Below are positions 9,241 through 64,000 of a stretch of DNA of 64,000 nt, piece after piece. Numbering within the stretch: position 1 is the stretch's first letter; every line of letters begins with the position of its first letter. Made by a program: the position numbers and the translations under genes. Under the pieces are notes generated by a model. It did not search any database. It was not told where the DNA came from and was given only the letters and a program-made list of their open reading frames with translations. The stretch comes from Herbiconiux sp. VKM Ac-1786 (GTDB lineage Bacteria; Actinomycetota; Actinomycetes; Actinomycetales; Microbacteriaceae), in contig NZ_JADKSG010000002.1 in assembly GCF_015350805.1 (NCBI RefSeq), positions 186,001 to 250,000 of the forward strand. Direction: 5' to 3'.

Positions 9241-9803
9241 CAGAGCGAGGGGATGCCCGCTCCGAAGTGCCGGAGGTGCAGGGCGAAGGCGGCGGCGGGG
9301 TCGCGACCGTCGGCGACGAGATCCTCGAGCGCGAGCCGGGTGGCGCTCGCGACGGCGGCCGCGGCGACCCGGGCGGCGGAGGACGCGGGGTCGAGCTCGA
9401 GACGCCGGGCCAGGGCCGGCACGAGGGACAGCTCGCCGACGTGGACCGCGCGCAGGAACACCGACCACATCTCGTCGTCGCGGAAGACGAGCGGGAAGAG
9501 GAGGCGGGTGCGCTCCGCGACCGCACCGCCGAGCATCCGCTCGAAGCCGGAGCGCAGCAGCTCGTCGAGGGAGCCGGCGGGTGCGGTCGAGACGTGGTCG
9601 TTGAAGGCGGCTGTGGTCCAGTCGAAGACCGGCTGGACGCAGTCGGCCTTGCTGGCGAAGTAGCGGTGGAAGGTGCGGGTGGGCACGCCCACGGCGGACG
9701 TGATCTCGGCGACCGTCAGTTTGGTGGTGCCCCGCTCGATGAAGAGGGCGCAGACGGCCTCGGAGGCGCGGAGCCGGGACTCGTCGACGCGCACACTGGC
9801 CAT
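9240..9803 (-). CDS. TetR/AcrR-family transcriptional regulator
   Basis: A 187-residue TetR repressor. The N-terminal HTH is clear (LTVAEITSAVGVPTRTFHRYFASKADCV, about residues 29-56), followed by an all-helical ligand domain. It is co-oriented with and upstream of the SDR gene, which is likely in the same transcript and co-repressed. A long inverted repeat begins four bases upstream of its start codon, with a core TGGCA-N5-TGCCA that would fit a TetR operator and hence autoregulation. The ligand is unknown. Confidence 0.92.
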   Translation of the reverse strand: MASVRVDESRLRASEAVCALFIERGTTKLTVAEITSAVGVPTRTFHRYFASKADCVQPVFDWTTAAFNDHVSTAPAGSLDELLRSGFERMLGGAVAERTRLLFPLVFRDDEMWSVFLRAVHVGELSLVPALARRLELDPASSAARVAAAAVASATRLALEDLVADGRDPAAAFALHLRHFGAGIPSL

Positions 9804-9807
9804 GGCG

Positions 9808-9858
9808 ACGACCCTACGCCGGTTCTGGCAGATTGTGCCAAAACCGGCGCAGGGTCGT
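9808..9858. promoter_or_regulatory. Long inverted repeat: TetR operator and/or terminator of the beta-glucosidase gene
   Basis: Arms of 23 nt pair at 21 positions across a 5-nt loop (GATTG). The inner part TTCTGGCA...TGCCAAAA has the symmetry and length of a TetR operator. The whole element, 34 bp beyond the beta-glucosidase stop, could also act as a terminator, although no U-run follows. Confidence 0.6.
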
Positions 9859-9891
9859 TCGACGGTGCCGGCGACCCGGCCGAGGGCCGGG

Positions 9892-11337
9892 CTACGCGGC
9901 CGGGATCGCCCTCGACGCGATCAGGGCCGCGTACCAGAGCGCGCTGTCCTTCAGCGTGCGCTCCTGCGTGTCGTAGTCCACGCGGATGATCCCGAACCGC
10001 TTCGAGTAGCCGTAGCCCCACTCGAAGTTGTCCATCAGGCTCCACACCTGGTACCCGCGCAGGTCGACCCCGGCTTCGAGCGCCCGGTGCGCGGCGGTGA
10101 AGTGGCGCCGCAGGTAGTCGACCCGCAGGGGGTCGTGCACCCGCGCCTCGCCGTCGGCATCCGTCGTGGGGGTGTCGTCGAAGGCCGCGCCGTTCTCGGT
10201 GATCATCAGCGGCTGCGACGGGAACTCGGCGTGCAGCTCGAGCAGCAGCTCCTCGAGCCCCGAGGGGTCGATGTTCCATCCCATCTCGGTGTACGGCCCC
10301 GGCTGGGGGAGGAACTCGATGTCGTCGGCGCCCGGCCACGGCGAGCCGCCGGCGTCCTTGTGGCCATCCGCCATCTGACGGGGCGAGACGCCGTCCCACA
10401 CCGCCACCAGGGTGGTCGAGTAGTAGTTGACGCCGAGCACGTCGAGCGGCTGGTTGATGATCTCGAGGTCGCCGCTCTCGACGAACGACCAGTCGGTGAT
10501 GGACGCCGTGTCGGTGAACAGGTCGGGCGGGTAGGCCCCGTGCAGCAGCGGCCCGGTGAAGGCGCGGTTGGCGATGGCGTCGATGCGGCGCACGGCCTCG
10601 GCGCCCTGGTCGCCCGAGCCGCGCAGCACGTGCAGGTTCAGCGTGATCGAGTACTGGGGGTCGTTCGTGACGACCTCCCGCAGCGCCTGGATCGCGAGCC
10701 CGTGCGCCAGGTTCAGGTGATGCACGGCCTGCAGGGCGGCCAGCGGCGAGGTGACCCCGGGGGCGTGCGCGCCCGAACCGTAGCCGAGGTAGGCCGAGCA
10801 CCAGGGCTCGTTGAGCGTCGTCCACACGGCGACCCGGTCGCCGAGCGCCGAACCCACGAGGCGGGCGTAGTCGGCGAAGGCCTCGGCGGTCGTGCGCACG
10901 GTCCAGCCGCCCTCGTCCTCGAGCGCCTGCGGCAGGTCCCAGTGGTAGAGGGTCGCGATCGGGGTGATCCCGCGGCTGATCAGGCCGTCGACGAGCGTGG
11001 AGTAGAAGTCGAGCCCCGCCTGCACGGCCGGCCCGCGACCGGTCGGCTGGATGCGCGGCCACGCGATCGAGAACCGGTACGACTCGAGCCCGAGCTCCAC
11101 CATCAGGTCGAGGTCGCTCTCCCAGCGGTGGTAGTGGTCGTCGGCGACGTCGCCGGTGTCGCCGTTCCAGACCTTGCCGGGGGTGTGGCTGAAGGTGTCC
11201 CAGATCGAGGGGCCGCGGCCGTCCTCGTCGTAGGCGCCCTCGATCTGGTACGACGCGGTGGCCGAGCCGAACAGGAAGCCGTCGGGGAACGTCAGCCCCG
11301 AGTCGCGGTAGTCGGGGTTGCCGGTGGTGGAGCTCAT
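9892..11337 (-). CDS. GH1 beta-glucosidase
   Basis: A 481-residue family 1 glycoside hydrolase with no signal peptide, so a cytoplasmic enzyme that hydrolyses imported beta-glucosides such as cellobiose. N-terminal signature [15 protein letters not shown] (21-35), acid/base E177 in TLNEPW, nucleophile E381 in ITENG, and the aglycone-side [13 protein letters not shown] near 432-444 are all present. ATG 11337 is chosen because the conserved N-terminus begins about 15 residues later; the upstream frame is Pro/Arg-rich. A LacI/CelR-like operator lies about 90 bp upstream. With the secreted GH5-CBM2 enzyme elsewhere in the window it suggests use of beta-glucans. Confidence 0.96.
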
Positions 11338-52957: not shown

Positions 52958-54556
52958 ATGACCCGTTCGTCCTACCCCGACGTCGACATCCCCGACCTCA
53001 GCGTCTACGACGCCCTGTTCTCCGGCATCGCCGAGGCCGACCTCGATCGGGTCGCGCTCGTCGACGGCCCGAGCGGCGACGAGACCAGCTACCGCGCCCT
53101 GATCGCCCAGATCGACGCGCTCGCCGGCTCGCTCGCGGCCCGGGGCTTGGCGGTCGGCGACCGCGTCGGCATCCTCTGCCCGAACGTGCCCGCGTTCGCG
53201 ACGGTGTTCCACGGCGTGCTGCGGGCCGGCGGCACCGCCACCACGATCAACTCCCTCTACACCGCGGGGGAGATCGAGAACCAGCTCACGAGCGCCGGTG
53301 CCACCTGGCTGTTCACCGTCTCGCCGCTCTACGCCCACGCCGCCGAGGCCGCCTCGAAGGCCGGTATCGACGCCGACCACCTCGTCGTCATCGACGGTGC
53401 CGAGGGCCACCCGTCGCTCCGCGATCTGCTGTTCGAGCGGGCGGCGCCGCCGGAGGTCTCGTTCGACCCGGCGACGCACCTCGCCGTGCTGCCGTACTCC
53501 TCGGGCACCACCGGGCGGCCGAAGGGCGTCATGCTGACGCACCGCAACCTGGTGGCGAACATCCACCAGTGCCGCGACGTCATCCCGCTCTCCCGCGACG
53601 ACCGGGCGCTCGCGGTGCTCCCGTTCTTCCACATCTACGGCATGTCGGTGCTGCTCGACTACGCCCTCCTGCAGCGGGCCGCCCTGGTCACCATGCCGAA
53701 GTTCGATCTGGCCGAGTTCCTGCGCACGGTGAGTGAACAGCGCTGCACGTGGGTGTTCATCGCGCCACCGATCGCGGTCGCGCTGGCCAAGCATCCGCTC
53801 GTCGACGAGTACGACCTCTCGGGCGTCGAGGTGATCTTCTCGGGAGCCGCCCCGCTCGACCGGGAGCTCGCGAAGGCGGTCGCCGGCCGCATCGGCTGCC
53901 AGGTGCGCCAGGGCTACGGCATGACCGAGACGAGCCCGGTCACGCACGCCATCCCGATCGAGGGCGACATCGACCTGTCCTCGATCGGGCTGGCCATCCC
54001 GAACACCGAGTGCCGGCTCGTCGACCCCGAGACCGGCGCCGACATCGAGGTGCCGGATGCGGGCACCAGCGCGGCCGGTGAGCTCCTCGTGCGCGGTCCC
54101 CAGGTGATGAGCGGCTACCTCAACGACGAGGAGGCGACGGCCCGCACCATCGAGCCCGACGGCTGGCTGCACACCGGTGACATCGCGACCGTCACCTCGG
54201 AAGGCGTCTACGCCATCGTCGACCGGCTGAAGGAGCTGATCAAGTACAAGGGCTACCAGGTGGCCCCCGCGGTGCTCGAGGCGGTGCTGCTCTCCCACGC
54301 CGACGTGGTCGACGCGGCCGTCGTGGGCGTGCCCGACGAGGACGCGCAGGAGGTGCCCAAGGCCTTCGTGGTGCGCCGTCCCGACGCCGGGGACGACTTC
54401 GACGAGGCCGCGGTGATGGCCTTCGTCGCCGAGCGGGTCGCCCCGCACGAGAAGGTGCGACTGGTGGAGTTCATCGACGCCATCCCGAAGTCGACCTCCG
54501 GCAAGATCCTGCGGAAGGACCTGCGCTCGCGGGTGGGGCGGCACGCTCTGACCTGA
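52958..54556 (+). CDS. AMP-dependent acyl-CoA ligase (4-coumarate-CoA ligase-like)
   Basis: A 532-residue ANL-superfamily enzyme. Motifs are YSSGTTGRPKGVMLTHRN (about 180-197), the core GYGMTETSP and the C-terminal PKSTSGKILRK lysine motif. It activates a carboxylate to an acyl-CoA; the group is close to 4CL and long-chain ligases, but the side chain is not predictable. A strong GAAGGAG ribosome site lies eight bases before the ATG. Confidence 0.94.
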   Translation: MTRSSYPDVDIPDLSVYDALFSGIAEADLDRVALVDGPSGDETSYRALIAQIDALAGSLAARGLAVGDRVGILCPNVPAFATVFHGVLRAGGTATTINSLYTAGEIENQLTSAGATWLFTVSPLYAHAAEAASKAGIDADHLVVIDGAEGHPSLRDLLFERAAPPEVSFDPATHLAVLPYSSGTTGRPKGVMLTHRNLVANIHQCRDVIPLSRDDRALAVLPFFHIYGMSVLLDYALLQRAALVTMPKFDLAEFLRTVSEQRCTWVFIAPPIAVALAKHPLVDEYDLSGVEVIFSGAAPLDRELAKAVAGRIGCQVRQGYGMTETSPVTHAIPIEGDIDLSSIGLAIPNTECRLVDPETGADIEVPDAGTSAAGELLVRGPQVMSGYLNDEEATARTIEPDGWLHTGDIATVTSEGVYAIVDRLKELIKYKGYQVAPAVLEAVLLSHADVVDAAVVGVPDEDAQEVPKAFVVRRPDAGDDFDEAAVMAFVAERVAPHEKVRLVEFIDAIPKSTSGKILRKDLRSRVGRHALT

Positions 54557-57137: not shown

Positions 57138-57575
57138 TCAGGAGACCAGCTCCTCCAGCGCCTTCGCCAGGCGTCGCTCGCGCGTGGCGTCGGTCTTCGC
57201 GTCGACGATCGACGTCGCGATGCGCTTCTTGTTCGTGTACGAGAGCGCGGCGAACGCGGCCGCGGCATCGGCGTCCCCGGCCAGAGCGGCGGCCAGAGCA
57301 TCCGGAAGCTCGACCTCGCGCGGCGCCTCGTCGAGCTCGACCCCGACCACGACCGTGTCACCGGCGGCGACGCCCGCGGCCGCCCGGTTCTCGGCGCTCA
57401 GTGCGATCAGGAACTGCCCGGTGTAGAACACGATCGAGCTGCGGTAGCTGTGGCCGCCGATGGTGACGACGACCGGGATGCGCTTGCCGCGGTCGAGCGC
57501 CGTCACCACGCTCTCGGGCACCGGGATGCCCGTGTTGTTCTTGCCGCTGGCGAGGATCGTCGTGCTGAACTCCAT
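57138..57575 (-). CDS. DUF1905/YdeI-like protein
   Basis: A 145-residue protein with an N-terminal DUF1905 domain (FSTTILASGKNNTGIPVPESVVTAL, SYRSSIVFYTGQFLIAL) and a C-terminal YdeI-like helical tail ending in the KKRIATSIVDAKTDATRERRLAKALEEL block. The family is linked to bacteriocin protection or stress and lacks a known activity. It lies 28 bp after the ferritin-like gene and may end the same transcript. Confidence 0.85.
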   Translation of the reverse strand: MEFSTTILASGKNNTGIPVPESVVTALDRGKRIPVVVTIGGHSYRSSIVFYTGQFLIALSAENRAAAGVAAGDTVVVGVELDEAPREVELPDALAAALAGDADAAAAFAALSYTNKKRIATSIVDAKTDATRERRLAKALEELVS

Positions 57576-57603: not shown

Positions 57604-58398
57604 TCAGGCGGCGATGCCGCGTGCGTCCAGCGCGTCCTGCACGATGGTGAGACCCTCGAGCCCCGGCATGCGGGCGATGTGCGCGTCGATCTTGGCGGCC
57701 TCGCGACGACCCTCGGGCCCGCCCATCAGGTGGCCCATCACATGCTTCACCTCGTCGTCGCTCATCACGCCCGAGCCGACGGGGCCCCAGAAGTTCTTCA
57801 GCGCGAAGCGCGCCAGCACCTGGGCCTTCTTGCTCTTGCCGAGACGCTCGCGGGCCTGGGTGGCGTAGAAGGCGACGTGACGCGCCTCCTGCTTCGCGAT
57901 GCGGCGCAGCAGCTCGGCCAGCACCGGATGCGCCTCGAGGTCGGCGAGCCGGTTGTAGGCGGCGACGGCCGACCACTCGTTGGCCGCGCCCCACACCATG
58001 TGCACGGCGATGAAGCCCGAGCCGACAATGTTGCCGAGCAGGGACTGCTTCACCGGGTCGAGACGGTCCTTCCAGCCGAGCTTCAGGCGGGTGGCCTTCA
58101 GCTCGTCGAAGTCGACGATCACGTCGTGCTCGGCGAGCACGGCCGCGAGGGCCTCGCCGTGCCAGAACTCCTCGCGGTTCCACATGGTCATGAACGCCGT
58201 GACGTCCTCGTCCTTGTGGGAGGGGGTGACGAGCATGTCGCGCAGGTAGCAGACCGTGTGGTACTCGATGTCGCACATGTAGCGGAGGCTCCGCAGGGTG
58301 CCCTCGGGAAGGGGGTGCTCGCGGAAGTCGGAGAAGTCGAGGTCCTGCCACGCGACCTTGGTGGAGGTCTCCGTGTACTTGTCGATGTCGAATGCCAT
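57604..58398 (-). CDS. Ferritin-like diiron protein with complete ligand set (possible lipid desaturase or oxygenase)
   Basis: A 264-residue all-helical protein. The pattern E45, E77-x-x-H80, E141 and E171-x-x-H174 supplies four Glu and two His, the complete set of diiron carboxylate enzymes such as acyl-ACP desaturase and arylamine oxygenase relatives. It is the last or second-last gene of the minus-strand lipid operon, downstream of the FAR-HAD gene by 18 bp. A role in oxidising or desaturating a fatty or ether chain is inferred from context. A paralogue without the ligands lies two genes upstream. ATG 58398. Confidence 0.85.
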   Translation of the reverse strand: MAFDIDKYTETSTKVAWQDLDFSDFREHPLPEGTLRSLRYMCDIEYHTVCYLRDMLVTPSHKDEDVTAFMTMWNREEFWHGEALAAVLAEHDVIVDFDELKATRLKLGWKDRLDPVKQSLLGNIVGSGFIAVHMVWGAANEWSAVAAYNRLADLEAHPVLAELLRRIAKQEARHVAFYATQARERLGKSKKAQVLARFALKNFWGPVGSGVMSDDEVKHVMGHLMGGPEGRREAAKIDAHIARMPGLEGLTIVQDALDARGIAA

Positions 58399-58416
58399 GG
58401 GTGTGTCGGGAGAGCG

Positions 58417-60768
58417 TCAGGTGGCGCTCGACCGGTCTCCTTCCTCGGGTGCGGATGCCGGTGCGTCGGGCAGCAGAGCCAGATTAGCCGGTGCGACGGG
58501 GCGGTCGGACGATCGTCTCGTCCAGTCCTCCACCGTCCACTTCATTCGTTGCGCGTGCCGATACAGATCGGTGTCGGGATTCACGACTGTGGCGTTTCCC
58601 AGCAGCTTCAGCCAGGACACGTCGGCGAGGCTGTCGCCGTAGCCGTACGACTGCGTCAGGTTCGCCCCGTGGGCGCCCGCGTACTCGCGGAGCCACGCGG
58701 CGCGCGCCTCGTCGACCAGCGGGGGAGCGGCGAGATAGCCGGTGAGCACGCCCTTGGAGGCGTGCATTTCGCCGGCGACGACCTCGTCGAAGAACGCGGA
58801 GAACGGCTCGGCGGCCGAGCTCATCGCACCCGTGACGAGCACGGTGCGGTGCCCGGCGGCGCGGTGCTGGGCGACGCGGTCCAGCGCATCCGGAATCGCC
58901 CGGCTCAGCATGGCGGCGCCGAAGCGGCCCTGCACGAGCTCCTGCAGCTCCTCGACGCGGATGCCCTTGTAGCGGCGCACGAGGGTGCGGATGAACTCGC
59001 CGCGGTCGCGCCGCTCGGCGCGCAGGTAGGCGGGCACCGAGACCAGGAGGCTCGCGAACTCCTGCGGCCACTGGGCCTTGGGGGTCATGCCGAGGCGCAT
59101 CCAGAGGTACTGCTCGACGAGGTTCGACTCGACGACGGTGCCCTCGAAGTCGAAGACGGCCAGCACGTCGCTGCGAACGGGCAGCGCGCGCTTGGCGCGG
59201 GCGCGGCCGGCGGGGCGCTTGGCGAAGGCCTTCGTGAGCCCGGTGATCGAGGGGAAGTGGATGCTCTGGAAGTACTCGTGCCAGTCGATCTCGGCCACGT
59301 CGAAGCCGCGGTCGGCCTTCAGCTCGTCGGGGATCGAGGCGTGCAGCGCCCGCGTGTTGCGGTCGTCGAAGATCAGCTCGGTCTGCACGTAGGCGCGGTA
59401 GAGCTCGGCGAAGTAGCGCAGCTGATCCAGGCCCTGCTGGCGGCGGCGGAGCGTCTCGGTCCACTGCCGCGTGCGCGGGTTCGAGGGCATGCGGATGACC
59501 GCCTGGTCGGCGACCGAGGCGAGGCGCTCCTGCAGGCGGAGCGTGCGCTCGACCGAGCGGCCGCCGGGGAAGCGCCACGACGGCACGGCGATGCCGCCGT
59601 CGTCTCCGGGCATGGGGTTCTCGGTGAAGAACTCCTTGACGTTCTCGTACATCGTGTGGAACGGCAGCGGGTTCCGCGCACCGGACACGACCTGGTAGTA
59701 CTGCGGCTCGTCGACGGGCGCCGGGGTCACGGCGGCGGCGAGGATCGCGTTCACCACGAAGTCGACCGGGATGACGTCGAGGATCGAGTCGGGCACGCCC
59801 GGGAACTCGGGCAGCTGGCCGCGGCCGTAGGCCATGATCAGCGGGTCGGCGACCTTGAAGCCGTCGAGCCAGCCCGGGAACGGGTGGCGCAGGGCGCTCT
59901 CGATGATGGAGGGGCGGACGATCGACAGGCGGTGTCCGGCCGTGCCCCACAGCTCCTCGGCGGCGCGCTCGGCGAAGGCCTTGGTGAGCGTGTAGACGTC
60001 GGTCCAGCCGAGGGACTCGGCGCGGATGCGGCCGTGGTCGATCAGGCGCTTGGTGACCCACTCGATGCGGGCGGCCTCGGCGTCGGCGGCGACGGCCTGC
60101 GGGCCGACCTTGCCGAGCTTCGCACGGCTCTTCGCGAGCAGGCCCCGCAGCACCTCGGGCTGGCGGGACGCCATCTCCACGCGTCGGCGCGCCGACCTGG
60201 CGGCGGCGTTCTCGGCGCGCCAGTCGATCTCGTGCTCGAGCGACGCCTCGGGCGAGACGCCCTTGCGCATGCCGCCGACGTAGGCGGTGGAGACGTGCAC
60301 CACGTGCGGGTCGCTGCCCGAGGCGAGCAGCGCGCCGTAGAGGCCGGTGGCCCCGTCGACGTTGGTCTGGAAGGCCTCGTCGATCGGCGGGTCGAACGAG
60401 ACGGTGGAGGCGCCGTGCAGCACCACGTCGATGTCGCCCGGCAGCTCGCCCGGGTTGGCCAGGTCGCCCTGGATGACGGAGAGGCGCTCGCGGATCGTGC
60501 GCTCGACCTCGGCCTCGCCGACGGCCTCGCGCCAGGTGCGGAACACCGGCTTCTTCAGCAGCGTCTGCAGGCGGGTCTCACCGGTGGTGCGCGACTTCGG
60601 CCGGATCAGCAGCGAGACGCGGGTGTCGGGGTGCGAGGAGAGCAGCCGCTCCAGCACCGCCTGGCCGACGAAGCCGGTGGCGCCCGTGAGCAGCACGTGC
60701 GAGCCGCCCAGAGAGAAGGCGGGGTCGGCGGGGGTCGTCGTCGGGTCGGTGGGGGTGGCGTCGGTCAT
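58417..60768 (-). CDS. Fatty acyl reductase fused to HAD-type phosphatase domain
   Basis: A 783-residue two-domain protein. N-terminal about 20-460: SDR-type thioester (fatty acyl-CoA/ACP) reductase with GATGFVG at 29-35, S160/T161, catalytic Y259-x-x-x-K263 and the male-sterility-type C-terminal region. C-terminal about 530-760: HAD-IB fold with D540-x-E542-G-T, T646 and GYGDSLAD (D712, D716), so the second catalytic Asp is Glu, which may alter or abolish phosphatase activity. It would make fatty alcohol or aldehyde. ATG 60768 overlaps the stop of the preceding gene (ATGA). The Tyr/Lys pair and the alkyl-DHAP-synthase neighbour suggest alkyl donors for ether lipids. Confidence 0.9.
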   Translation of the reverse strand: MTDATPTDPTTTPADPAFSLGGSHVLLTGATGFVGQAVLERLLSSHPDTRVSLLIRPKSRTTGETRLQTLLKKPVFRTWREAVGEAEVERTIRERLSVIQGDLANPGELPGDIDVVLHGASTVSFDPPIDEAFQTNVDGATGLYGALLASGSDPHVVHVSTAYVGGMRKGVSPEASLEHEIDWRAENAAARSARRRVEMASRQPEVLRGLLAKSRAKLGKVGPQAVAADAEAARIEWVTKRLIDHGRIRAESLGWTDVYTLTKAFAERAAEELWGTAGHRLSIVRPSIIESALRHPFPGWLDGFKVADPLIMAYGRGQLPEFPGVPDSILDVIPVDFVVNAILAAAVTPAPVDEPQYYQVVSGARNPLPFHTMYENVKEFFTENPMPGDDGGIAVPSWRFPGGRSVERTLRLQERLASVADQAVIRMPSNPRTRQWTETLRRRQQGLDQLRYFAELYRAYVQTELIFDDRNTRALHASIPDELKADRGFDVAEIDWHEYFQSIHFPSITGLTKAFAKRPAGRARAKRALPVRSDVLAVFDFEGTVVESNLVEQYLWMRLGMTPKAQWPQEFASLLVSVPAYLRAERRDRGEFIRTLVRRYKGIRVEELQELVQGRFGAAMLSRAIPDALDRVAQHRAAGHRTVLVTGAMSSAAEPFSAFFDEVVAGEMHASKGVLTGYLAAPPLVDEARAAWLREYAGAHGANLTQSYGYGDSLADVSWLKLLGNATVVNPDTDLYRHAQRMKWTVEDWTRRSSDRPVAPANLALLPDAPASAPEEGDRSSAT

Positions 60769-61721
60769 CCGGTCGCTCCGCCTTTCGTGGAGGTCGAGGT
60801 GGTCGAGGTCGAGTTCGTGGTCGGGGTGGCGCCGGTCGAGGCGGGGCGCGCGGGCGCCAGACGGTGGCGCAGCCCGGCGAGGCGGCGGCCGAGGGCGTGA
60901 CCGGCTCCGCGCGACGGGGTGAGCGCGCGCTCCCGAGCGGCCCGCACGACGTGCAGGGCGCCGAGCCCGGGGAGCTCGCGCACCTTCGCGTCGACGCCGG
61001 CGGTGAGCTCGGCGTCGAGGAGCTCTTCGTAGAAGAAGGCCGAGGCGGATTGCTGCACGCTCGCGGCCCCGATCGGCCACGGGGTGCGCGGCAGGGCGCG
61101 GCGGGCGAGGTTCTGCGCCCGGCGCGAGGCGGTCAGGCGGGCGCGGGCGTCGGGCTCGACGAACGCACGGTGCCGCTTCTTCACCTCGAGGATGCGCTCG
61201 AGCAGCGAGACCAGCTCGGGGTTCGGGTCGAGCGTCTTGAGGCGGAGGTACGCAGCCTCGGTCATCCACTCGTCGACCGCCACCGTGGTGAGGTGCACGC
61301 CGATCACGTCGGGGCCGATGGCGTTCGCGCGGAACGACTCGACGATGGGCGTCGCCCGCTCGGAGAGCTCGAGCGCGAGGGCCTTGAAGCGGGGGAGCTC
61401 CTCGATCGCGGTCGGGTCGACGCCGTGGGCGCGCACGATCACCTCGAGGGCGTCGGCGATCCAGTACTTCTCGAACGCCCAGGTGGTGAGGAACGCGGTC
61501 ACCCGCGCGTCCTTGTGCGTCGGCGTGACGAGCACGTTGCGCAGGTAGGTCATGGTCGAGCGCTCGAGCTCGCGCAGGTAGGCGAGCAGGCGCACGGTGC
61601 GATCGGTGAGCGGATGCTCGGCGAACGCCGCGAGATCGATCTCGCCGCGGTGGCTGCCGACCGCGGTGCGGGCGAAGTCGCGCACGTCGAAACGCTCGGG
61701 AACTCGTTCTTCGACGGACAT
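60765..61721 (-). CDS. Ferritin-like protein with degenerate diiron site (paralogue)
   Basis: A 318-residue protein whose first about 260 residues align with the diiron protein at 57604-58398. Residues equivalent to E77 and H80 are K85 and I88, and E171 is K181, while E53, E151 and H184 are kept. Three of six ligands are therefore missing, two replaced by Lys, so a normal diiron centre is unlikely. A Pro/Arg/Thr-rich tail (about 275-318) is added. It opens the minus-strand operon and precedes FAR-HAD by a four-base overlap. A structural or heterodimer partner is possible. ATG 61721 with GGAGAG upstream. Confidence 0.85.
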   Translation of the reverse strand: MSVEERVPERFDVRDFARTAVGSHRGEIDLAAFAEHPLTDRTVRLLAYLRELERSTMTYLRNVLVTPTHKDARVTAFLTTWAFEKYWIADALEVIVRAHGVDPTAIEELPRFKALALELSERATPIVESFRANAIGPDVIGVHLTTVAVDEWMTEAAYLRLKTLDPNPELVSLLERILEVKKRHRAFVEPDARARLTASRRAQNLARRALPRTPWPIGAASVQQSASAFFYEELLDAELTAGVDAKVRELPGLGALHVVRAARERALTPSRGAGHALGRRLAGLRHRLAPARPASTGATPTTNSTSTTSTSTKGGATG

Positions 61722-61790
61722 CTGGTCTCTCCGGAGGCGGGCGGTCCCCGGCGTGGTCGGCGAGGAGGGGTGAACGGATGCGCTCGTCTA

Positions 61791-61811
61791 ACGCTACGCA
61801 CTCCGTAGCGT
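61791..61811. promoter_or_regulatory. Shared palindromic operator of the divergent lipid operons
   Basis: Perfect 8-bp arms ACGCTACG and CGTAGCGT flank CACTC. The right arm runs into TATCCT (61811-61816), a -10-like element eight bases before the ATG at 61824. The element is the only conserved symmetry in the 102-bp region between the two operons, and has the size of a TetR-family site. Confidence 0.7.
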
Positions 61812-61823
61812 ATCCTAAGCACC

Positions 61824-62624
61824 ATGGCGACGGCTCTGGTGACCGGTGGAACCTCGGGGATCGGTGCAGCATTCGCCCGAGCCCTCTCCCTTCGAGGGTA
61901 CGACCTCGTGCTCGTCGCTCGCGACGAGGAGCGGCTGCGCGAGACGGCCGCCGAGCTCTCCCGCGACGGGGCGACGAAGGTCGAGACCATCTCGGCCGAC
62001 CTCTCGGTGCGCGCCGACGTCGACCGCATCGCCGAGCGGCTCGAGTCGACGGAGTCGCCCATCGACTTCCTGGTCAACAACGCCGGCTTCGGCATCCACG
62101 GCTCGCTGCTCGAGCGCGACATCTCGATCCACGAGCGGGCGCTGTCGGTGATGTGCCTCGCGGTGCTCGTGCTCGGCGGTGCGGCCGGCCGCGCCATGAA
62201 GGCCAGGCACAAGGGCACCATCCTCAACGTCTCGAGCGTCGCCGGCACCATCGCCACGGGCAACTACTCGGCCGTGAAGGCGTGGACGACGGCGTACACC
62301 GAGGCGCTCGCGGTCGAGCTGAAGGGCACGGGCGTGCAGGTCACGGCGGTGCTGCCGGGCTGGGTGCGCACCGAGTTCCACGACCGGGCGGGCATCCGCA
62401 CCAAGTCGATCCCCGACTTCCTCTGGCTCGACGCCGACGCGCTCGTCGAAGAGTGCCTGCGCGACGTCGCCCACGGCAAGGTGCTCTCGGTGCCCTCGAA
62501 GCGGTTCCGCTTCCTCATGCTCTTCACCCGCCACCTGCCCCGCCGCACCATCCGCTGGGTCTCGGGCCGCATCTCGTCCAGCCGCAGCAAACCGATCGTG
62601 CCGTCGGAGGCGAAGACCTCATGA
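61824..62624 (+). CDS. SDR-family reductase (candidate acyl/alkyl-DHAP reductase)
   Basis: A 266-residue short-chain dehydrogenase with TGGTSGIGAA (7-16), NNAG, and Y148-x-x-x-K152 in GNYSAVK. It resembles NADP-type SDRs of lipid metabolism, including relatives of the mammalian acyl/alkyl-DHAP reductase, but the family does not fix the substrate. Its first base is close to a -10-like element, with no ribosome site, so the transcript may be leaderless. Its stop overlaps the start of the acyltransferase gene (ATGA). Confidence 0.88.
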   Translation: MATALVTGGTSGIGAAFARALSLRGYDLVLVARDEERLRETAAELSRDGATKVETISADLSVRADVDRIAERLESTESPIDFLVNNAGFGIHGSLLERDISIHERALSVMCLAVLVLGGAAGRAMKARHKGTILNVSSVAGTIATGNYSAVKAWTTAYTEALAVELKGTGVQVTAVLPGWVRTEFHDRAGIRTKSIPDFLWLDADALVEECLRDVAHGKVLSVPSKRFRFLMLFTRHLPRRTIRWVSGRISSSRSKPIVPSEAKTS

Positions 62625-63355
62625 TGACCCACAACCACCCGCACCTCATCCGTGCCCCCAAAGACCGCTTCACGAGCAGCGTCATGGCGAACATGCGCTT
62701 CGTCGCGCAGCGGATGCTGCTGAAGCCGGTGGTCTGGTCGATCACCCGCGTGACCGTGCGCGGCCACGACGCGGTCAAGGGCGTGCAGGGTGCGTTCATC
62801 GCGGTCGCGAACCACTCCAGCCACCTCGACGCGCCGCTGATCATGTGCGCGCTGCCGCGGCGCATGGGCCGGTACCTGGCGGCCGGAGCCGCTGCCGACT
62901 ACTTCTTCGACATCTGGTGGCGGCGCATCCTGACCGCCCTGTTCTTCAACGCCTTCCCGATCGACCGCACCGGCACCGCGCAGAAGCAGGGCGTGTCGAA
63001 GAAGCTGCTGAACCGCGGGGTGCCGCTGCTCGTCTTCCCCGAGGGCACCCGCTCGAAGACCGGCGAGATGGCCGACTTCAAGGCCGGGGCCGCCGCCCTC
63101 TCGCTCTCCTGCAACGTGCCGCTCGTGCCCGTCGCCCTGGTCGGCGCGAGCGCCGCCATGCCGCGCGGCCGCAACTGGCCGATCCCTGGGCGCCCGCCGG
63201 TGGCGGTCGTCTTCGGGGAGCCTATGATCGGACTGCCCGGCGAGACGCCCGACCAGTTCTCCCAGCGCATCAGGGCCGAGGTGCAGCGACTGCACTCGAC
63301 CGGAGCCGCCACCGCCGACGGCTCACCCCGCAGCACCCCGAAAGGAATCGCATGA
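62621..63355 (+). CDS. PlsC-family acyltransferase
   Basis: A 244-residue 1-acylglycerol-3-phosphate-O-acyltransferase-family protein with the complete motif I NHSSHLD (H65, D70) and motif III FPEGTRS (139-145). It would acylate a glycerol- or DHAP-type phosphate. Four-base overlaps with both neighbours put it in one operon with the SDR and the alkyl-DHAP-synthase-like gene. Together they would make and modify the DHAP backbone. Confidence 0.93.
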   Translation: MMTHNHPHLIRAPKDRFTSSVMANMRFVAQRMLLKPVVWSITRVTVRGHDAVKGVQGAFIAVANHSSHLDAPLIMCALPRRMGRYLAAGAAADYFFDIWWRRILTALFFNAFPIDRTGTAQKQGVSKKLLNRGVPLLVFPEGTRSKTGEMADFKAGAAALSLSCNVPLVPVALVGASAAMPRGRNWPIPGRPPVAVVFGEPMIGLPGETPDQFSQRIRAEVQRLHSTGAATADGSPRSTPKGIA

Positions 63356-64000
63356 CCGACGTGAAGCACATGAAGTGGTGGGGCTGGGGCCTCGAGGGCG
63401 TCGGATTCCACTTCGAGGACAAGCCCGACTTCGCCCCCTTCGTGAAGAAGGCCGTGGCGCTCGACATCAGCGTCCCGCCGGTGCCGCCGCTGGCGTTCGA
63501 CGAGCTCACCGTCGAGCCGCCGCGCCTGACACCGTCGTTCGAGGCCGAGCTGGTCGCCATCGTCGGCGAGGCCAACTCCACCACGGATGACATGGCCCGT
63601 GTCGTGCACACCTATGGCAAGAGCATCCGCGACCTGCTGCGCGTCCGCCGCAACGAGATCGCCCGCGTGCCCGATGTCGTCGTCTACCCGGCCGACGAGG
63701 CCGAGGTGCAGCGCATCGTCGACGCGGCCATCACCGAGGGCGCCGTGCTCATCCCGTTCGGCGGCGGCAGCAACATCGCCGGCAGCCTCGAACCCCTCGC
63801 CGACGAGAAGCGCACCATCGTCTCGCTCGACCTGGGGCGCCTTCGTCGCGTGCTCGACATCGACGAGGGCTCGGGTCTCGCCCGCATCCAGGCCGGTGCC
63901 CAGGGCCCCGACCTCGAGGCGCAGCTGAACGCCCGCGGCTGGACGCTCGGTCACTTCCCCGACAGCTTCACCCACTCCACGCTCGGCGGCTGGGTCGCGA
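63352..64000 (+). CDS. Alkyldihydroxyacetonephosphate synthase-like FAD-binding oxidase, C-terminus outside window
   Basis: The first 216 codons are visible. The N-terminus HMKWWGWGLEGV and the FAD-binding PFGGGSNIAGSLEP (about 134-147), then DLGRLRRVLDIDEGSGLARIQAG and DSFTHSTLGGWVA match the alkyl-DHAP synthase (AGPS) group of the VAO/FAD_binding_4 family. AGPS replaces the acyl chain of acyl-DHAP by a fatty alcohol to make the ether bond. The ATG overlaps the stop of the acyltransferase gene (ATGA). It is the key piece for ether-lipid synthesis; its catalytic C-terminal half is not in the window. Confidence 0.9.
   Translation, partial: MTDVKHMKWWGWGLEGVGFHFEDKPDFAPFVKKAVALDISVPPVPPLAFDELTVEPPRLTPSFEAELVAIVGEANSTTDDMARVVHTYGKSIRDLLRVRRNEIARVPDVVVYPADEAEVQRIVDAAITEGAVLIPFGGGSNIAGSLEPLADEKRTIVSLDLGRLRRVLDIDEGSGLARIQAGAQGPDLEAQLNARGWTLGHFPDSFTHSTLGGWVA

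Follow-up and report, generated by a model that had tools for sequence, protein, structure and literature searches.

A conserved six-gene locus of Herbiconiux predicted to make ether lipids, with a soluble diiron protein that may act on them

Results

Analysis of a 64,000-base stretch of the 3.89 Mb genome of Herbiconiux sp. VKM Ac-1786 (bases 186001–250000 of contig 2; hereafter the window) points to a candidate ether-lipid locus at window positions 57604–64000, made up of two divergent, tightly packed gene sets with six genes in total. The leftward set (minus strand) comprises ferB, FAR-HAD and ferA, that is, a fusion of a fatty acyl reductase (FAR) with a HAD domain, flanked by two ferritin-like proteins; the rightward set (plus strand) comprises a short-chain reductase (SDR), a PlsC-type acyltransferase and alkyl-dihydroxyacetone phosphate (alkyl-DHAP) synthase (AGPS). 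Adjacent genes overlap by 4 bases (ferB/FAR), 1 base (SDR/PlsC) and 4 bases (PlsC/AGPS). We read the locus as a TetR-controlled, aerobic pathway that would make ether lipids by the AGPS route, with FerA acting on its products, and assign this reading a probability of about 0.6. Its parts differ in strength: it is very likely that the four core enzymes make alkyl ethers, and probable that FerA acts on the lipids of that pathway; that it does so by making a vinyl ether is a tentative proposal. An earlier note on this DNA had described a six-gene locus of ether-lipid type in two divergent operons; all six genes were found in place, and families, catalytic residues and conserved synteny agree with that description.

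The case begins with AGPS. The window ends inside this gene; reading on past position 64000, as the earlier note had suggested, recovered the rest of a 577-residue protein and then two TetR genes. The protein contains the Pfam domains FAD_binding_4 and FAD-oxidase_C. With phmmer it matches the solved alkyl-DHAP synthase of Dictyostelium (2uuu) at 5.7e-122 and 411.5 bits, residues 42–551 being aligned, and peroxisomal AGPS (4bby) at 5.1e-82, compared with 2.5e-19 and 72.7 bits for glycolate oxidase. None of the 59 full-length sequences departs from the motifs GHxPDS, the Arg of TRV/TRI, LYF or SHHH. This and the following motif counts for core enzymes cover the Herbiconiux protein and those named loci that gave a full-length reading; the named loci are the best 80 of 236 confirmed relatives and are not a random sample, the query having been led with the FerA of Occultella. 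We take the His and Asp of GHxPDS, the Arg, the Tyr and the His-His-His, like the residues of the other motifs below, to be catalytic. Their loss from the complete gene had been named beforehand as a finding that would speak against ether-lipid synthesis; all are kept. The FAD enzyme is of the alkyl-DHAP synthase type, and exchange of acyl for alkyl is its predicted activity.

The remaining core enzymes are equally well conserved in their motifs. FAR-HAD matches NAD_binding_4 (2.1e-48) and HAD (6.7e-31); the YxxxK of the reductase and the nucleophilic Asp of the HAD domain are each present in 63 of 63 sequences, the residue two positions after that Asp being Glu in 57 and His in 6. The C-terminal Sterile domain of the reductase (PF03015) scores 29.7 bits against a gathering cut-off of 35.4. 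The SDR matches adh_short (5.4e-40) and keeps YxxxK in 64/64, its best NCBIfam model being mycolate reductase (172 bits, under the cut-off of 380). PlsC matches PF01553 (Acyltransferase; 1.5e-23) and keeps HX4D in 62/62. The inventory of families given earlier holds throughout, with the amendment that the reductase is a fusion whose C-terminal HAD domain had been missed. The acyltransferase family is likewise confirmed, but the earlier assignment to acyl-DHAP formation is too narrow: the enzyme could be a DHAP acyltransferase or an sn-2 acyltransferase.

The earlier note did not recognise an actinobacterial set of this kind; the set is widespread. Matches to FerA, counting weak ones, occur in 135 of 398 genomes of the family, representing 33 of 85 genera, and in 28 of the 79 genomes of the relatives search (Herbiconiux sp. 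VKM Ac-1786 included), among them 16/16 of its own genus. Named species of Herbiconiux that carry the locus include H. gentiana (L085), H. solani and H. moechotypicola. The retrieved stretch contains the full set of six in 59 of the 80 named loci; five more lie on short contigs or, at the cut-off applied, lack one gene. The layout differs in Occultella and Ruania, where all six are codirectional and follow the TetR gene TetR1. At 16 of the 80 loci ferA stands alone, with or without ferB. Thirteen genomes from these loci were checked for AGPS: ten encode it elsewhere at no less than 60% identity, the match in Tamaricihabitans reaches only 35%, and Agromyces terreus and Haloactinopolyspora alba have only weak ones. 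Conversely, four of six further loci (one genome each of Jiangella, Georgenia, Kocuria and Naasia) consist of a cluster of FAR-HAD, SDR, PlsC and AGPS with ferA elsewhere; of the other two, one has all six genes and one, from Kineococcus radiotolerans, has AGPS and SDR. Because the core four also cluster without ferA, and ferA stands without the core, we distinguish two units, the core four and the FerA(B) module, which frequently occur together. One locus of the genus Subtercola (L036:11547-15824, genome G022) carries extra genes between FAR-HAD and ferA and after ferA; they encode a Lar_N (lactate racemase-like) protein, a second PF01553 acyltransferase and a DAGK_cat/YegS-type lipid kinase.

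The two operons diverge from a palindrome, CGCTACG-N5-CGTAGCG, which the earlier note had seen and which lies 13 bases before the start of SDR (61792–61810). With up to two mismatches it recurs in 29 of 57 homologous divergent intergenic regions, where base shuffling predicts about 0.1. TetR1 is present within the examined stretch in 27 of the 29 loci with the motif, as against 2 of the 28 without it. Where TetR1 lies beside ferA in other arrangements, a related palindrome (two mismatches) was found between the two genes in 8/8 loci read (of ten, L034 and L035 were left out, and this count has no shuffle control). Since palindrome and TetR1 gene co-occur, TetR1, encoded just after AGPS, is the probable regulator, predicted to bind at the palindrome.

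FerA is the candidate for a further, oxidative step. Its six putative ligands, E45, E77, H80, E141, E171 and H174, are invariant in 81/81 sequences and form the pattern E..ExxH..E..ExxH, which we take to be that of acyl-acyl carrier protein (acyl-ACP) desaturases (PF03405). Similarity to PF03405 is weak, at E 0.01 or better in 33/33 members scanned: the Herbiconiux protein reaches 18.6 bits (gathering cut-off 22.7), a Kocuria protein 23.3. Sub-threshold Pfam matches of the Herbiconiux protein are to rubrerythrin and acyl-ACP desaturase. A structure model of FerA (33 sequences) is all-helical, with a mean predicted local distance difference test score (pLDDT) of 84.6 and a predicted template modelling score (pTM) of 0.86. 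When this model was compared with the PDB by Foldseek, acyl-ACP desaturases and R2-like ligand-binding oxidases (R2lox) ranked first (best E 2.1e-3). FerA thus shares the presumed ligand pattern and the general fold with these enzymes; the desaturases in the list have TM-scores of 0.47–0.63 (normalised by query), but are only 14–19% identical to FerA, which moreover is often paired with a ligand-less paralogue. Neither FerA nor FerB matches PF10520 (Lipid_desat) at E 0.1.

That paralogue, FerB, is 37% identical to FerA and has no Pfam match at E 0.1. With columns matched to FerA numbering through a joint alignment, E77 is replaced in 67 of 70 FerB sequences (K in 59, Q in 7, L in 1; E is kept in 3), H80 in at least 69 of 70 (I 60, L 6, M 2, S 1) and E171 in 70/70. 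When 25 FerB sequences were placed in a tree with 32 of FerA, they formed a single clade (support 1.0). From the replaced ligands and the single clade we conclude that FerB has lost its diiron site and is a conserved, ligand-poor partner of FerA. An active diiron pair, as the earlier note had it, is ruled out: FerA keeps its ligands, FerB lacks three, and the locus encodes one diiron protein.

More distant relatives of FerA also exist. A diiron family ∼24–31% identical to FerA occurs in Kineococcus and other members of the order (L155, L156, L160, L161, L162). All six ligands are kept in five of the five members aligned, three of them from genomes of the genus Kineococcus and two from others; the one member scanned has no Pfam match, and in one 6-kb stretch inspected by eye the gene has no ether-lipid gene nearby. 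Genome G486 carries a second FerA-like gene (L159:4574-5326, 44% identical) in addition to a 55% identical FerA and AGPS. In G051, ferA (L033:8101-8907) stands without ether-lipid genes, beside genes that by eye resemble those of phenylacetate catabolism.

The distribution of FerA mostly follows that of AGPS across genomes. Among 198 genomes of the order, 24 have both, 4 have FerA only, 20 AGPS only and 150 neither (Fisher p 4.5e-15); among the relatives without Herbiconiux the figures are 9, 2, 4 and 48 (p 1.4e-6). The limits used, at least 300 bits for FerA and at least 600 bits for AGPS, were chosen after a gap in the scores had been seen; AGPS-like proteins at 34–38% identity count as absent, and the p values ignore shared descent. 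FerA thus occurs mostly with AGPS, and AGPS often without FerA: the pattern expected of a downstream step.

To our knowledge plasmalogens are rarely reported from oxygen-breathing bacteria. Dimethyl acetals (DMA) are the products expected from vinyl ethers. In the excerpted text of PMC5945732, four Subtercola species contain i16:0 DMA at 6.9–17.0% and a15:0 DMA at 3.2–11.0%, the i16:0 values being 17.0% for S. vilae DB165 and 6.9% for S. lobariae; Agreia has low amounts of DMA and Frondihabitans none. All six genes are present in S. vilae DB165 itself (L110), in S. lobariae (L101), in three strains of S. boreus (L115, L116, L143) and in Agreia bicolorata (L151). The plsA-type domain PF06050 (HGD-D) was found in none of 13 genomes, which include S. 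vilae, S. lobariae, two of S. boreus and A. bicolorata, with controls positive in 2/14. PF10520 (CarF/PEDS1) was also found in 0/13, but the control genomes were silent as well, so its absence is not established. DMA may moreover be under-reported, since according to PMC7472656 (in excerpt) the MIDI system labelled the a15:0 DMA peak as C14:0 2OH; both C14:0 2OH and an a15:0 aldehyde/DMA are reported for Frigoribacterium (PMC12823222, in excerpt). The words dimethyl, DMA, plasmalogen, ether and alkyl have no whole-word occurrence in the S. vilae genome paper (PMC6518244).

Discussion

Families, catalytic residues, synteny and operator are read directly from sequence; each reaction that follows, and the identity of the lipid, is predicted from them. 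FAR-HAD would reduce acyl-CoA to a fatty alcohol. The PlsC-type enzyme would form acyl-DHAP, or fill the sn-2 position later. AGPS would exchange the acyl group for the alcohol, giving alkyl-DHAP, and the SDR would reduce this to 1-O-alkyl-glycerol-3-phosphate, which could then enter phospholipid synthesis; the HAD domain may take a phosphate off a lipid intermediate. FerA, often with ligand-less FerB as partner, would oxidise the alkyl chain, most likely by desaturating C1'–C2' to yield a vinyl-ether lipid (plasmalogen). The pathway would be under TetR control and use oxygen. S. vilae DB165 combines DMA with the complete cluster and lacks a plsA-type domain, so FerA may be a plasmanyl desaturase of a kind not related to CarF/PEDS1. 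In its full form the proposal is more tentative still: FerA might be a soluble plasmanyl desaturase with an origin separate from that of CarF/PEDS1, in most lineages joined by a dead FerB in a structural role, and might account genetically for the DMA recorded since long ago in aerobic Microbacteriaceae such as Subtercola.

Several observations weigh against this proposal. In the excerpt of PMC7472656, Kineococcus rubinsiae contains 2.9% anteiso-15:0 DMA by gas chromatography–mass spectrometry. At least 11 genomes of the genus, K. rubinsiae itself not having been examined, encode AGPS (58–61% identity); no FerA match reaches 300 bits in any of the 11, and 4/11 have a weak, distant homologue. 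FerA is thus not the sole route to DMA, or not the route; if K. rubinsiae resembles those genomes, a different enzyme must make its vinyl ether. Each of 13 genomes scanned for the membrane desaturase family PF00487, none of them from Kineococcus, encodes at least one member. FerA occurs without a close AGPS in G039, Agromyces terreus, Haloactinopolyspora alba and Tamaricihabitans, and in the four FerA-only genomes of the order, G051, G124, G186 (with a 36% AGPS-like match) and G463 (73% complete). FerB is not universal, being absent beside FerA in Jiangella and others: a single FerA/FerB-type match, at FerA's place, was found in four Jiangella genomes, H. alba, G051 and G463. The FerA model has no Foldseek match in the PDB at E ≤ 1e-3, and a later paper on Subtercola fatty acids has no occurrence of DMA (PMC9287328). 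Two strict rules fall with these exceptions: that FerA needs AGPS, by the genomes lacking a close AGPS, and that DMA needs FerA, by Kineococcus. It is on account of Kineococcus, the distant diiron homologue, PF00487 and FerA without close AGPS that we hold the vinyl-ether role only tentatively.

The same observations sustain a serious rival, to which we give somewhat less than even odds: that the core makes alkyl ethers while FerA/FerB carries out other chemistry on chain or precursor (internal desaturation, hydroxylation or aldehyde handling), the vinyl ether coming from another enzyme such as the PF00487 desaturase. The DMA of a Kineococcus species from a genus with AGPS but no close FerA, the PF00487 protein in all 13 genomes and the few genomes with FerA but no close AGPS would all be accommodated. 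On the other side, the single PF00487 gene of the Herbiconiux genome (C2:1060638) lies ∼0.8 Mb from the cluster, and it is FerA that most named loci have within the AGPS cluster and that largely tracks AGPS across genomes. It is unlikely that Herbiconiux makes alkyl ethers only and uses FerA/FerB for oxidative turnover of fatty aldehydes or alcohols: no report of DMA in Herbiconiux is among the literature matches listed, and an aldehyde-deformylating oxygenase (6d9f) appears at Foldseek rank 33 for FerA, but the same gene set accompanies high DMA in Subtercola, as far as the excerpted source goes. Very improbable is an ordinary glycolate/lactate-type dehydrogenase in a locus for wax or alcohol metabolism: the best NCBIfam match of the FAD protein is GlcD, but at 115.9 bits it falls far below the cut-off of 567.9, and we reject that identity on the scores against solved AGPS and glycolate oxidase and on the invariant AGPS-type residues, SHHH included.

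The AGPS-route reading invites comparison with known pathways. The animal peroxisomal pathway (FAR1, GNPAT, AGPS, PexRAP, then PEDS1) uses the same four enzyme types, and the AGPS catalytic residues are conserved; the bacterial cluster differs in lying beside a TetR gene, in the fusion of FAR to HAD and in having a soluble diiron protein instead of PEDS1, no PEDS1-family match being found here in a search whose controls were silent. The elb operon, MXAN_1676-1674 and CarF of Myxococcus xanthus, as described in the excerpt of PMC9131029, likewise belong to an aerobic system that has branched chains, includes FAR, acyltransferase and HAD (ElbB) components and encodes AGPS next to a FAR/acyltransferase gene. 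The cluster described here has no multidomain ElbD, contains the FAR-HAD fusion, and has FerA/FerB where CarF would be expected. For the anaerobic plasmalogen reductases PlsA/PlsR the product class, vinyl-ether lipids, could match, but their HGD-D domain is absent from the 13 genomes and the route proposed here would depend on an alcohol and on oxygen chemistry.

AGPS homologues in metagenome bins of Actinobacteria have been listed before (PMC11868695, in excerpt), so it is the cluster as a conserved unit, together with its FAR-HAD fusion and its FerA/FerB module, that appears to be new; the module is the part that could be truly so. Among the literature matches listed on ether lipids, plasmalogens and dimethyl acetals in these bacteria, titles and the beginnings of abstracts do not describe the gene set. 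The locus gives a chemotaxonomic oddity – DMA in aerobic Microbacteriaceae – a testable genetic cause, and FerA could represent a second class of plasmanyl desaturase, a soluble one.

Features of the locus and its surroundings

Table 1. Coordinates of the six genes, the palindrome and the genes following AGPS. Positions are those of the window unless preceded by the locus handle L009; aa, residues.
Feature	Position	Strand	Description
ferA	57604..58398	-	soluble ferritin-like diiron protein, 264 aa; putative ligands E45, E77, H80, E141, E171, H174
FAR-HAD	58417..60768	-	fatty acyl reductase (NAD_binding_4) with C-terminal HAD phosphatase-type domain, 783 aa
ferB	60765..61721	-	FerA paralogue lacking the diiron site, 318 aa
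Palindromic operator (predicted), CGCTACG-N5-CGTAGCG	61792..61810		divergent promoter region
SDR	61824..62624	+	short-chain reductase, 266 aa; proposed acyl/alkyl-DHAP reductase
PlsC-type acyltransferase	62624..63355	+	243 aa; proposed DHAP or sn-2 acyltransferase
AGPS (alkyl-DHAP synthase)	63352..64000, runs past window end	+	first 216 residues in window
Whole AGPS gene	L009:7353-9086		577 aa, completed from the same genome
Two TetR genes after AGPS	L009:9097-9687 and 9784-10437	opposite to AGPS	

ferA is immediately followed, on its own strand, by a gene for a DUF1905/OmdA (YdeI-like) protein (57138-57575). About 3 kb beyond ferA there is a gene of the AMP-binding acyl-CoA ligase type (52958-54556), whose product could feed FAR.

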